NCBI GenBank assembly: GCA_015521115.1
Contig: WAOT01000032.1
Location: forward strand, 1 to 64,000
DNA: 64,000 bases
Reading direction: 5' to 3'
Origin: Desulfurococcales archaeon
Lineage (GTDB): Archaea > Thermoproteota > Thermoprotei_A > Sulfolobales > Acidilobaceae
Position 1 is the first letter of the stretch. Every line of letters begins with the position of its first letter. The position numbers were made by a program, and so were the translations under genes. The notes beneath the pieces were generated by a model. The model was not told the origin of the DNA. It did no database searches and was given only the letters and a program-made list of their open reading frames with translations. This document shows, in pieces, positions 23,803 to 43,138 of this stretch.

Positions 23803-24855
23803 CTAGAGGAGGAAGAATTTCTTTGATAGCCCGAGGGTTGAATCAGTTTTGCTCATACTTTTCTCGGGATCTGGCTCAATCCCTGTTAATGCCCTGATAG
23901 CATCGATATTCTCGGGAACGACTATTGACTCCTGGTGCACTGCTTGGAAGAGCATTAGCTCGTCTTTTTCGACATGGACGCTATCTTCAAACACGACCAG
24001 CTCTGGTATATCGTTTCTGGGGCGGAGATCTCTTGCTACCTCTATTAGCTGTGCTGTCCCTTTAATCCCTGTGACAGCACTCTTGACGAGCACTATTCTC
24101 CTTGCATCCTCTAACACCCTGAGTATATCTTCACGAGTAACCCCTCCTTCCGAGAAGCGTACAGCGACATGGTGCACGTGCATTAGTGTAGTTGGAACTA
24201 CTACTGCTGCAGTCACAATATCGAGCCATGGTACTACAGTCTTGACATCGAGGGCGTGGTGGGATGGTAGGCGTGGCGGGTTTAGGTTTATACTGTTTAT
24301 GGGGCCCTTCTTCACCTCCCTAGGGTCTGCGGCTCTTCTTATGAGGACTGCCCTGACCCGTGATATTTTGAAGTGATTGCCTAGGGTACATATCAGCCTT
24401 AGGAGTCCAGTCGTGTTACAAGACACTACTCTAGCACTAGCCTTATTGAGTGCCTCTTTATAGTTGCAGAGAGAGCTGAACGACACCTCTGCTACATCAG
24501 GCTTCTCTCCCCCCTGGAAAATCTGCTTTACGTGCGGGAACCTCGTATAGATCTGCTTGTTCTTAGCCCCCATCCCGCCGGGGGTGGCATCTACCACGAC
24601 GTCTACATTTTCAAGTAGCTCTTCGAGTGTGCCGCTAACCTGTATACCTGTAATTTCAAACTTATCGATATCGTCCTGTGTAGGTACGTAGAGGTTGAAA
24701 CCCTTCTTGAGCGCTAATAGTGCCCCATAATCGGGGCTCTTCTTAACGACCCCCACAACATCCATGTCATCCTGAAGCCTAATGGCGTCCGCAACACGCT
24801 TACCTATGGTTCCATAGCCGTTTACGGCCACACGGATCTTTCCCACCACCTCCAT
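23803..24855 (-). CDS. gap: Type II glyceraldehyde-3-phosphate dehydrogenase
   Basis: This protein of about 350 residues is the archaeal phosphorylating GAPDH. The N-terminal IRVAVNGYGTIGKRVADA binds NAD(P), and the catalytic cysteine is C146 in VVSCNTTGLLR. The RRAADPREVKKGPINS and PSHHALDVKTV segments are family hallmarks. I placed the start at the ATG at 24855, which follows GGGGTG and matches homologues; the frame is open 14 codons further to a TTG. In many Crenarchaeota gap and pgk are adjacent; here they are separated by a divergently transcribed surface-protein gene. Confidence 0.95.
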   Translation of the reverse strand: MEVVGKIRVAVNGYGTIGKRVADAIRLQDDMDVVGVVKKSPDYGALLALKKGFNLYVPTQDDIDKFEITGIQVSGTLEELLENVDVVVDATPGGMGAKNKQIYTRFPHVKQIFQGGEKPDVAEVSFSSLCNYKEALNKASARVVSCNTTGLLRLICTLGNHFKISRVRAVLIRRAADPREVKKGPINSINLNPPRLPSHHALDVKTVVPWLDIVTAAVVVPTTLMHVHHVAVRFSEGGVTREDILRVLEDARRIVLVKSAVTGIKGTAQLIEVARDLRPRNDIPELVVFEDSVHVEKDELMLFQAVHQESIVVPENIDAIRALTGIEPDPEKSMSKTDSTLGLSKKFFLL

Positions 24856-24897
24856 ACACCCCGTGAACTTGTAGTAGAGGGGTACCTCCTTTTTCAA

Positions 24898-25058
24898 ACT
24901 ATCTCTGATTCGACACCATACTATCCCCTCCTACATGGAATGATAGTTATCTAAGATATGTTTAATAATACGTTTAAATTATTATTTACTTATATTATTT
25001 TATTTTTCAATTATCTTTATAACCATTCAATAACGTTAACCAATAGCGGTGTTGCTGG
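24898..25058. promoter_or_regulatory. AT-rich divergent intergenic region (gap / propeller protein)
   Basis: The 161-bp interval is among the most AT-rich DNA in the window, especially 24950-25035. A CTTTATAA box near 25014-25021 is well placed for the rightward propeller gene at 25059. On the other strand several TATA-like sequences precede gap, and I cannot choose one. The composition contrasts with the flanking coding DNA and may mark an insertion junction. Confidence 0.5.
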
Positions 25059-27995
25059 ATGGCTATATGCCGATCCCAGTATACACGGGTTATCAGCTAT
25101 TTATCAATATTGATAATAGTAATATCATTATTATATGTTACCCCTGATTATCTTGTTGCTCATGCATACCTTAGCCCTCAGCCTCCAGGCGAGATAGTGA
25201 AAACCCGCCTCATTGGAGGACACTTAGGGAGCGTGGCATGGAGTCCTGACGGCACCATGATAGCAGTAGGCGGGTATAGTATAAACCTTGGAGGTAGGGT
25301 TGTGCTCTTCAGTGTGAATGGTAGCATCGTGTGGATTAAGACGGTTTCCGCAGCCTCAATTCTCAGTCTAGCTTGGAGCCCGGACGGTTCAAAAATAGTC
25401 GCAGGAGGAGGTGACTGGAGGGTTACTGTTCTTGCCCGAAACGGCTCAGTTCTCTGGAGTGAGAATTTAGGCGAGGTCGTATACTCTGTGGCGTGGAGCC
25501 CAGATGGGTCAAAAATAGTAGCCGGAACTATTCATGGAAGGGTCGTAGAGTTCGACAGTGAAGGCAACATCCTATGGAGTACGCAGGTTGAGGAGGGTGC
25601 AGCATATTCGGTTGCTTGGAGCCCGAACAGCTCTAGGATAGCTGTTGGCTCCGGATGGAGCGATGACCAGGGATACCACGGGTTCCTAACCATCCTTGAT
25701 GATGGCGGAGATGTAATATGGGAGGAGGTTCTTAATGGAACAATACTTAGCGTGTCATGGAGCCCTGATGGGAGCAAGATCGCCGTAGGCATGTCTTGGA
25801 ATGATGGCGAGCAGGATCACGGTTATGTCCAAGTGTTCAGTAGTAATGGGTCTCTCCTCTGGAGCAGCAACGACTTCGGGGCTACCGTATATTCGGTATC
25901 ATACCACACTCGTAACGAGAGTATAGCTGTGGGCCTAGGATGGGGAGGCTACAATAGTTACAGTGGGGCTGTGATCCTCCTCGACCCAAACGGTAATGCA
26001 CTGTGGACTAAGTTCTTCTATAGCCCGGTAGCTAGTATCTCATGGAGCCCGAGTGGAACTGAGATAGCGGTTGGCCTCAGATACAGCAATGTTTCCGTGT
26101 TCTCATATCAGGGAGGCCTGATACTGGAGACCCAGGATCTAGGCGGGCAAGTGATAGCATTAGCCTGGAGCCCGGACGGGTCATGGATTGCGATGAACGG
26201 GGAAGCATCGGGCCGCATCGTCCTGCTCGACCCCCAGACCATGGTGATGAGGAGGATCGCAGGCATAGGAGGTGATGCGTTAGCATTAGCGTGGAGCCCG
26301 GACGGCTCGAAAATCGTGGTTGCTGCGGGCTTCGCTAACACGGTAATTAGCGTTGTCGACACGTACGGTAACATGTATTGGTCGCACACTATTGTGGGTA
26401 GAGCGACTAGCGTCTCATGGAGCGGGGATGGGAGTAAAATTTCTCTCACTACATACTGGAGTGGCTACCAAGGCGAACAAAGTGTCGTCGAAGTCTACGC
26501 GCCTAATGGCACCCTCTTGTGGAATACCACGTTCCAAAAGCGTGTATTGAGCTCTTCATGGAGCCCTGACGGTGAGAGGCTAGCTGTCGGATACGGCTCC
26601 GGAGCCCACGGAAGACTAGTGGTACTCGGCTCGGATAGATATCAGGTCTGGAAGAGTGGAGATATCGGGCCGGTAAGGAGCGTATCATGGAGCCCTGACG
26701 GGAAGAGATTGGCAGCAGTTGTTGATGTAGAAGACGAGTATGGGCGGTTCCATGGCTGGGTCTATGTCTATGCTAGGAACGGCACACTATTATGGAAGAG
26801 ACACGTGGGAGACTACTTTATTTATGAGGTTGAGTGGAGCCCTGACGGGGGCCTGCTAGCTCTCACAGGAGACACTAACGTTATCCTGTATTACATGAAC
26901 GGCAGCAAGCTATGCGGTACTTCCCCCCTTGGGGGCTCTGTTACAAGCATAGCGTGGAGCCCTGACGGGAAAAGCCTCGTTGTTGGAGTTAGTTTCGGAG
27001 GCATAGCTATCGTCAACTGGACGCAGTGCCCGGTCGGAACAATAAGGATCCACGGTATACCTAGCTCCCTCATAGATATCTCGGGTGTTGGAGGCGCCGG
27101 CAGCTACATCATACCTTCAAACGGCACCCTCCTACTCTATGCATCCCCGGGGGAGTACATGATCAACTACTCCCTCCCACGACCGGCAGGATTTGTAGGT
27201 AACTCCTCAGCACTTAATGGCTTATTAAATATCACTCTCCAGTCAGACGAAGACGAGGAAATCAGCCTACCCGGATATTATAGCCTCCTAGGGAGGATTA
27301 AGCTCACGTCGCCTGTTGGGGGGAGCGTGATCATACAATGGAGTGGAGGAGTAGCGAACATATCGCTACATCTAGGTGAAGAGAGAACCCTATACGCAGC
27401 TCCCGGAGGCTACATTATACACTACACCATAGCGAAGCCGCCTCTCTATGTGGGCAGTATTGAAGACCTAAGCGGGAACATTAGCCTCACGGTATCGTCT
27501 GGTAGGCTGTATAGCTTAGAGCTGCCCTCCTACGATGATATCCTAGGCCTACTCTCAATTTCGGGGCCCGCTGGTAGCACGATAACAGTTAGGGGAAGAA
27601 CCCATTATGCAAACTTTACTATGCCGTCAACGGGTAACATTACAATATGGCTTGCACCGGGTAACTATTCTGTGATAATTTATTACAGTAACTCGAAGAT
27701 AACTAGAAATATAACAGTATCAAAAGGAGAGAGTGTAACCTTGAACTACTCACCCACAGAGTTTGTTACACCGTCAAAGAACGCCACATCAACCACTACT
27801 TACACTACTAGTACTAGTAGTAATATTCCTAGTGAGACGGGTGAGATTAGTAGCCAACAAAATACCCGTTCAGTACAGAATACTACCGGGGGGAGAGCCC
27901 CTCAGAGGCCTTCCGGTACCCTAACCTGGATCCTCATAGTTGTCTCCACAGTATTAGTGTCCATAATATTAATTATAAAATATAGAAAGATTTAG
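25059..27995 (+). CDS. Large surface protein: two seven-bladed propellers, beta-sandwich repeats, C-terminal anchor
   Basis: This 978-residue protein starts with a signal peptide or signal anchor (hydrophobic residues 11-27). From about residue 58 to 650 it has 14 copies of a WSPDG-centred repeat spaced 40-50 residues; copies 4, 6, 7 and 10 deviate. Fourteen blades fit two seven-bladed WD40/PD40-like propellers. About three PEGA-like beta-sandwich repeats follow (roughly residues 670-910), then a Thr/Ser-rich, N-glycosylation-rich stalk and a C-terminal membrane helix with a basic RKI end. It is therefore predicted to sit outside the membrane. No enzymatic motif was found. It lies between gap and pgk, opposite to both, and its stop abuts the pgk stop with no spacer. 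Confidence 0.85.
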   Translation: MAICRSQYTRVISYLSILIIVISLLYVTPDYLVAHAYLSPQPPGEIVKTRLIGGHLGSVAWSPDGTMIAVGGYSINLGGRVVLFSVNGSIVWIKTVSAASILSLAWSPDGSKIVAGGGDWRVTVLARNGSVLWSENLGEVVYSVAWSPDGSKIVAGTIHGRVVEFDSEGNILWSTQVEEGAAYSVAWSPNSSRIAVGSGWSDDQGYHGFLTILDDGGDVIWEEVLNGTILSVSWSPDGSKIAVGMSWNDGEQDHGYVQVFSSNGSLLWSSNDFGATVYSVSYHTRNESIAVGLGWGGYNSYSGAVILLDPNGNALWTKFFYSPVASISWSPSGTEIAVGLRYSNVSVFSYQGGLILETQDLGGQVIALAWSPDGSWIAMNGEASGRIVLLDPQTMVMRRIAGIGGDALALAWSPDGSKIVVAAGFANTVISVVDTYGNMYWSHTIVGRATSVSWSGDGSKISLTTYWSGYQGEQSVVEVYAPNGTLLWNTTFQKRVLSSSWSPDGERLAVGYGSGAHGRLVVLGSDRYQVWKSGDIGPVRSVSWSPDGKRLAAVVDVEDEYGRFHGWVYVYARNGTLLWKRHVGDYFIYEVEWSPDGGLLALTGDTNVILYYMNGSKLCGTSPLGGSVTSIAWSPDGKSLVVGVSFGGIAIVNWTQCPVGTIRIHGIPSSLIDISGVGGAGSYIIPSNGTLLLYASPGEYMINYSLPRPAGFVGNSSALNGLLNITLQSDEDEEISLPGYYSLLGRIKLTSPVGGSVIIQWSGGVANISLHLGEERTLYAAPGGYIIHYTIAKPPLYVGSIEDLSGNISLTVSSGRLYSLELPSYDDILGLLSISGPAGSTITVRGRTHYANFTMPSTGNITIWLAPGNYSVIIYYSNSKITRNITVSKGESVTLNYSPTEFVTPSKNATSTTTYTTSTSSNIPSETGEISSQQNTRSVQNTTGGRAPQRPSGTLTWILIVVSTVLVSIILIIKYRKI

Positions 27996-29249
27996 TTATT
28001 TACCCCTATCTTTTAACCTATCTTTTGAGGGGCTTATGAGTGCTTCAAGTCCTGGAAGTATCCTGCCTGAGAGGAAGTAGAGGAGTGCCCCACCGCCCGT
28101 GCTCACGTGACCCACCCTCTCCTTCAACTCATCGGGTAGTTCCGATAGGATTGCGTTGAAGTGGCCTCCTCCGAAGATCGTGTAGGCCTTGGTTGAGGAG
28201 AGTGCGAACTCGACAAGCTGCCTGGTACCCCTCCTGAACCTTGGGTCTTCAATTACCCCTGCCGGCCCTCTCATTACGATCACTTTGGCGCGTGCCATTT
28301 TGTAGCTGTAGTATTCTATTGTCGAGGGGCCTATGTCCTTTGGCGCGCCTATGATCTCGTGAGCCATTACTACCTCGGTGCTACTATCTACTTCTGCAAC
28401 GAAATCCAGCGGCACCCTTATAATGTTGGACTCCGCTATGAGTTTTCTGGCGAGGTTGAGGGTCTTTTCATCGACTTTCTTCTCTATTATCTTTGATGCT
28501 TCTCCCACGTTAATCCCCGATACCATTAGGAAGAGGAGGCCTACAAGGCCAGTAGTTAGTATCTCGTCTGCCGCTCCACTAGTTACAAGGTAGCTTATGA
28601 TCTTAACGGTATCCTTAAGCTTGGCACCTCCCAGTACGAAGACCTTGGGGGATTCCTCTACTGAGAGAGCCCTGCTAAGGGCCTTGATCTCCTTCTCTAG
28701 CAGGCGTCCGGCGGCGCTTGGGAGAAGCCGGGGAATACCCGCTACTGTGACCTGACTTCTATGTGAGACTGCGAAAGCATCGTTTACGTAGATATCCCCC
28801 ATGGACGCGAGCTCACGTGCTAGTATGGTTTTTACTAGTTCCTCAGGAGGGGCCTCGCGTGACTCCTCCGAGTAGAGGCGAGTATTGTCGAGCAAGAGTA
28901 CCTGGCCCGGCCTGAGGGAGTTAACTGCTTTTTTAGCCGCCGGCCCGATTAGATCCGGGACAAACCCTACATCACCGCCGAGGAGTTCGGATAACTTCTT
29001 GGCGTGTGCCTCAAGTCTAGTAAAGTCGCTGCCGAAGGGCCTCCCTTGGTGGGCTAATATCACTATTTTGGCGTTCCTCTCCATTAGCTCCCTTATTGTA
29101 GGTATGTGTGCTTTAAAGCGTGTGTCGTCAAGTATCTCCCCGTTGCCCCCGATAGGAGAGTTAATGTCGACCCTCAAAAGAACCGTTTTACCCTCAACGT
29201 CTACGTCCGAAAGGGTGGGTATCCTCCGGCCCAGGTAGGATAGCGACAA
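27996..29249 (-). CDS. pgk: Phosphoglycerate kinase
   Basis: This 417-residue enzyme transfers the acyl phosphate of 1,3-bisphosphoglycerate to ADP. The N-terminal domain has LLRVDINSPI and the basic substrate residues in HQGRP and DNTRLYSEE. The C-terminal nucleotide domain has VLGGAKLKDT and the FGGGHFNA/STGGGALLYFL loops. The start is a TTG directly abutting a GGAGG sequence with no spacer; no ATG or GTG fits better, so the initiation context is unusual. It would normally be beside gap. Confidence 0.95.
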   Translation of the reverse strand: MSLSYLGRRIPTLSDVDVEGKTVLLRVDINSPIGGNGEILDDTRFKAHIPTIRELMERNAKIVILAHQGRPFGSDFTRLEAHAKKLSELLGGDVGFVPDLIGPAAKKAVNSLRPGQVLLLDNTRLYSEESREAPPEELVKTILARELASMGDIYVNDAFAVSHRSQVTVAGIPRLLPSAAGRLLEKEIKALSRALSVEESPKVFVLGGAKLKDTVKIISYLVTSGAADEILTTGLVGLLFLMVSGINVGEASKIIEKKVDEKTLNLARKLIAESNIIRVPLDFVAEVDSSTEVVMAHEIIGAPKDIGPSTIEYYSYKMARAKVIVMRGPAGVIEDPRFRRGTRQLVEFALSSTKAYTIFGGGHFNAILSELPDELKERVGHVSTGGGALLYFLSGRILPGLEALISPSKDRLKDRGK

Positions 29250-43026: not shown

Positions 43027-43138
43027 GGGCCCGTAGCTTAGCCAGGCAGAGCGGCGGGCTTTTAACCCCAGGCCCGTAGAGGGGCTCTGGGCGGAGGAAA
43101 CCCGTAGGTCCCGGGTTCAAATCCCGGCGGGCCCGCCA
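43027..43138 (+). tRNA. tRNA-Lys (anticodon TTT) with a 35-nt intron
   Basis: The cloverleaf is complete: acceptor GGGCCCG/CGGGCCC, D stem GCTT/GAGC, anticodon stem GCGGG/CCCGT, T arm CCGGG-TTCAAAT-CCCGG, G73 and encoded CCA. The anticodon loop CT-TTT-A is interrupted after position 37 by 43065-43099. Loop bases CTTT pair with GAGG near the intron end, leaving TAA and AAA bulges, and the intron itself folds on CCCAG/CTGGG and GCCC/GGGC. This is a good bulge-helix-bulge substrate. Confidence 0.94.

Follow-up and report, generated by a model that had tools for sequence, protein, structure and literature searches.

A predicted surface protein with two WD40 propellers in a Desulfurococcales archaeon and its apparent kinship with propeller receptor kinases

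Results and discussion

The 64,000-nucleotide stretch analysed here (the window) contains a complete, open reading frame (25059-27995, forward strand, ATG start) for a protein of 978 aa, and fold prediction supports two seven-bladed WD40 propellers in its single chain. Homology shows that this protein descends from the propeller receptor kinases of its lineage or shares its ectodomain with them. It has the ectodomain modules and the membrane helix of the receptor-kinase group of this order but not the cytoplasmic kinase, and we lean towards regarding it as a putative kinase-less surface receptor for recognition or adhesion.

Architecture of the protein

All features of the gene lie on the forward strand. 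A possible archaeal TATA box (TTTATAA, 25016-25022) can be read ca. 37 nt before the ATG. The N-terminal signal or anchor segment (residues 1-37, 25059-25169) includes a hydrophobic helix in the model (residues 2-25), and both the export signal and the C-terminal membrane anchor are present as judged from hydrophobicity and predicted helices. Propeller 1 (residues 46-357, 25194-26129) would comprise an N-terminal closing strand and blades 1-7, and propeller 2 (residues 358-655, 26130-27023) blades 8-14, the exact ring boundary being our estimate.

The initial annotation claimed exactly 14 WSPDG-type blades at regular spacing, fitting two complete seven-bladed propellers, and for this protein the count holds and the double ring is supported. 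A regular expression finds 14 blade motifs with W/Y at residues 61 to 633, spaced 40-49 aa apart, and a family-built blade HMM recovers exactly 14 blades and none further (residues 49-655, 28-59 bits each). This HMM was seeded partly with blades of the protein itself, and independent support comes from Pfam (PF00400, WD40, E 1e-30; WD40-propeller models down to 4e-42) and from the fold prediction. The tryptophan is kept in 13 of the 14 blades, blade 6 being degenerate (SYHTRNES). An AlphaFold2 model of the full chain, based on ten aligned sequences, has good confidence across most of the propeller region, while a second model, restricted to residues 40-660 and based on 14 aligned sequences, reaches a pLDDT of 84 and a pTM of 0.63 and shows 56 strands, i.e., 14 four-stranded blades, together with a strand N-terminal to blade 1 that is able to close the ring as in WD40 proteins. 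The alignment rows used for the models are mostly many-blade proteins, which could bias them toward a double-ring solution.

Foldseek comparison of residues 40-660 against the PDB placed 2ymu first (E 1.5e-40, TM 0.70 by query; 0.70/0.74), and the best matches over more than 600 columns were double seven-bladed propellers (2ymu, Aip1), with Aip1 (1nr0, TM 0.67) and the Utp21 tandem WD domain (4nsx) also ranking high. Over the full length the rmsd is 5-7 Å, which a different angle between the two rings would lead one to expect. We deduce the 7+7 split from the number of strands together with the matches to double-ring templates. By sequence, too, 2ymu is the best PDB match (E 7e-38, 25% identity). 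Membership of the WD40 superfamily is indicated by repeats of ca. 40-50 aa and, in the prediction, by closed rings of four-stranded blades. An origin of the 14 blades by duplication of a whole propeller was considered and is unproven, blades i and i+7 being weakly more alike (p about 0.05).

The propellers are followed by three beta-sandwich repeats of ca. 80 aa (27033-27263, E 1.9e-26; 27267-27518, E 3.6e-30; 27522-27743, E 5.8e-21), the E-values being those of a repeat-family profile (A2) that includes the protein's own three repeats among its rows. The repeat is carried by 15 of the 229 genomes of the class searched, all 15 belonging to the same order. For repeats 1 and 2 the model has low confidence (pLDDT mostly 23-49). 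The three sandwiches and the Thr/Ser-rich stretch of the initial annotation were recovered, but its label "PEGA-like" was not: Pfam PEGA (PF08308) has no match in the 978 aa, although it matches three other frames of the same genome (C39, C40, C48), and PEGA membership was rejected as the profile cut-off is not reached. Across the sandwich family, the PEGA model matches one of nine repeats (E 0.0024) and CarboxypepD_reg two of nine (best 0.0018), and among PDB sequences the best match, too faint to be decisive, is filamin (E 0.004). So, judging by these profiles, the repeats are a lineage-restricted PEGA/Ig-like sandwich that bears only a resemblance to PEGA. The frames with real PEGA matches are large (C39, 1947 aa; C40, 844 aa; C48, 1683 aa) and possibly encode other surface proteins.

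Beyond the sandwiches, composition and low pLDDT delimit a flexible stalk (ca. residues 899-956, 27753-27923) that is 43% Ser+Thr (26% T, 17% S), and the ectodomain as a whole holds 25 N-glycosylation sequons. The C-terminal membrane helix of the initial annotation is borne out by a predicted helix (ca. residues 956-974, 27924-27980; model helix 954-977), after which a cytoplasmic tail of only ca. 5 residues ends in KYRKI.

Genome context

The gene sits between gap (archaeal glyceraldehyde-3-phosphate dehydrogenase, 23803-24897) and pgk (phosphoglycerate kinase, 27996-29249), identified by Pfam and related loci and both encoded on the opposite (reverse) strand, the pgk stop codon abutting its own. 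Among 29 related loci, 27 have gap following pgk, the aligned ends lying no more than 92 nt apart (in the remaining two, gap falls outside the sequence stretch compared), so the gene looks like a lineage-specific insertion. Both flanks are 64-70% identical to those of congeners, and a chimeric contig is therefore unlikely. GC and GC3 (0.50 and 0.52) are close to those of gap (0.49 and 0.54), i.e., there is no sign of foreign composition. No full-length counterpart or ortholog was found in four congeneric genomes (three of them 77-92% complete), which indicates that the protein is not a conserved component, and a search of 24700-28200 for target-site repeats flanking the insertion found none besides the blade repeats. 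At this locus (23803-29249), the pgk-gap pair is split by the inserted gene, and pgk has ca. 13 extra C-terminal residues that are unaligned in relatives. The source organism is an archaeon with an EF-1alpha close to that of 3wxm (Aeropyrum pernix). Elsewhere in the window, ARAGORN reports a tRNA-Pro of 69 nt (43070-43138); its anticodon, AGG, is unusual in archaea, and the call may be false.

Relatives with and without a kinase

The source genome also encodes a 1368-aa protein (C58) that combines 8 blades and 7 sandwich matches with a signal helix, a membrane helix and a Pkinase domain (E 8.9e-53). Similar receptor kinases occur in four other genomes, G002 (L125), G011 (L123), G032 (L122) and G065 (L197, L198), their kinase domains being recognised by Pfam at E 2.5e-29 to 3.3e-25. 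The region from residue 656 to 952 of the 978-aa protein aligns with the juxtamembrane part of L197 (1765 aa, G065) at 35% over 311 columns, and with the kinase ectodomains of L117, L122 and L123 at 27-31%. Within the 978 aa, Pfam gives no Pkinase match. The source genome has six Pkinase matches, four of them fused to a propeller (L117, L118, L119, L120; C58, C29, C53), and three of these four (L118, L119, L120) are WD40-kinases without signal or membrane helix. Such cytosolic paralogs are the only anchorless homologues found, and as they likewise have no signal segment, the topology of the 978-aa protein is not contradicted by them.

Membrane-anchored relatives devoid of a kinase are frequent (L124, L127, L128, L131, L132, L200, L201, L205, L207). 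Exactly 14 blades is no constant of the family: relatives have 2-3, 7, 8 or 14-15, most of them 7-8, and L132 has 14-15. Two small relatives (L128:4083-5138 and L124:5908-7212, both on the forward strand) are complete and have, besides a signal helix and a membrane helix, only 3 blades and 2 sandwiches; they may assemble as oligomers, since three blades cannot close a ring. A 543-aa ORF (L134, G038:C3) combines a signal helix, 2 blades, too few for a propeller, and a membrane helix with a kinase catalytic motif. In a scan of the contig collection, most hits were multi-WD40 proteins of bacteria, and none was a close relative.

Proposed function

That the protein sits at the cell surface, binds through its propeller faces and cannot signal autonomously is our inference. 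The product would be a type I membrane protein in which the N-terminal signal is followed by the two propellers outside the cell, by a spacer through the envelope made up of the three sandwiches and the Ser/Thr stalk, which is probably glycosylated, and by a single membrane helix that anchors the whole with almost no cytoplasmic tail. A partner outside the cell or in the S-layer may be bound by the propeller faces, the protein acting as an adhesion or recognition receptor; such a receptor could not signal alone, and any signal would have to go via another protein, e.g., a kinase-bearing paralog. The initial annotation suggested adhesion, S-layer interaction or ligand sensing; the recurrence in relatives of the unit of propeller, sandwich and membrane helix as the ectodomain of receptor-type kinases narrows these suggestions and favours recognition or sensing over an S-layer building block. 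Counting against a recognition receptor are that no kinase gene adjoins, the neighbours being pgk and gap, that none of the four congeneric genomes yielded an ortholog, and that sandwich repeats 1 and 2 are modelled with low confidence.

The protein might instead act as a co-receptor or decoy, pairing or competing with a kinase-bearing paralog (e.g., the 1368-aa C58) through propellers or sandwiches and so tuning its signalling. We hold this to be a tentative alternative: its ectodomain and juxtamembrane module have homologues in a kinase that the same genome encodes, and most Pkinase matches of that genome (4/6) are fused to propellers, but the gene is not linked to the kinase paralog and the blade numbers are unequal (8 in C58 vs 14). 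A purely structural surface or S-layer-associated protein, serving as stalk or wall component and specific for no ligand, would accord with the known archaeal surface-layer propeller proteins (1l0q matches at E 6e-14) and with the Ser/Thr stalk and C-terminal helix that are usual in archaeal surface proteins. However, the protein's sporadic presence (the congeners searched gave no ortholog) and the sharing of its ectodomain with kinases speak against a general wall component, and we regard this role as unlikely. It is highly improbable that the gene is a receptor kinase truncated by accident and now decaying, as the absence of the kinase and a gene end falling exactly at the pgk stop codon might suggest, for the frame is complete, its membrane helix and stop are normal, it holds no kinase remnant and its GC3 resembles that of its neighbours. 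Kinase-less relatives are, moreover, common in other genomes, so that the kinase-less form appears to be a regular one and not simply a broken gene.

Going beyond the recognition receptor that we prefer, the protein could belong, as a partner without a kinase, to an archaeal receptor-kinase system not yet described, in which ectodomains vary (2-3, 7, 8 or 14 blades, 2-11 sandwiches) and ligand specificity is changed by gain and loss of blades and sandwiches, a proposal that we consider rather doubtful at present.

Comparison with known systems

Extracellular beta-propellers on a membrane helix are found in the PknD-type sensor kinases of Mycobacterium, which resemble the 978-aa protein in this respect but are bacterial, bear a kinase and have an NHL-type six-bladed propeller. 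Closer in phylogeny, the surface-layer proteins of Methanosarcina (1l0q), which Jing et al. reportedly described in 2002 as having YVTN propeller and PKD domains, similarly join an extracellular archaeal propeller to a beta-sandwich, yet their propeller is of the YVTN type, their sandwiches are PKD domains and they are not known to form a double WD40 ring. The eukaryotic Aip1 (1nr0) likewise has two seven-bladed WD40 rings per chain (17% identity), but is a cytosolic actin regulator without a membrane anchor. Like our protein, 2ymu (Nostoc Npun_R6612) has 14 contiguous WD40 blades in two seven-bladed rings, and PMC5587647 reports that this 14-repeat protein forms two WD40 domains; as solved, 2ymu consists of the propeller pair only, whereas in the 978-aa protein such a pair is accompanied by a signal segment, a stalk of sandwiches and a membrane helix. 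Within the same order, L117, L122, L123, L125, L197 and L198 share with it the signal, WD40 propeller, sandwich repeat and membrane helix, but have one 7-8-blade propeller and a cytoplasmic kinase in place of two propellers and none.

Prokaryotic WD40-kinase fusions have been reported (PMC2877116, PMC5587647). Taken singly, double WD40 propellers, surface propellers of archaea and fusions of WD40 repeats to kinases are known, and what is new is their combination with the sandwich repeat and the pairing of kinase-less and kinase-bearing forms; in the openly licensed literature searched, we found no description of the propeller-sandwich-membrane architecture in archaea, with or without a kinase.

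A double propeller on a stalk is by itself unsurprising, and the wider family of archaeal propeller receptor kinases is the better lead. The 978-aa protein ties archaeal surface propellers to a membrane receptor kinase family in relatives of Aeropyrum-like hyperthermophiles, a group in which signal reception is little described, and its genome offers a testable pair in which these ectodomain modules occur both joined to a kinase and free of one.
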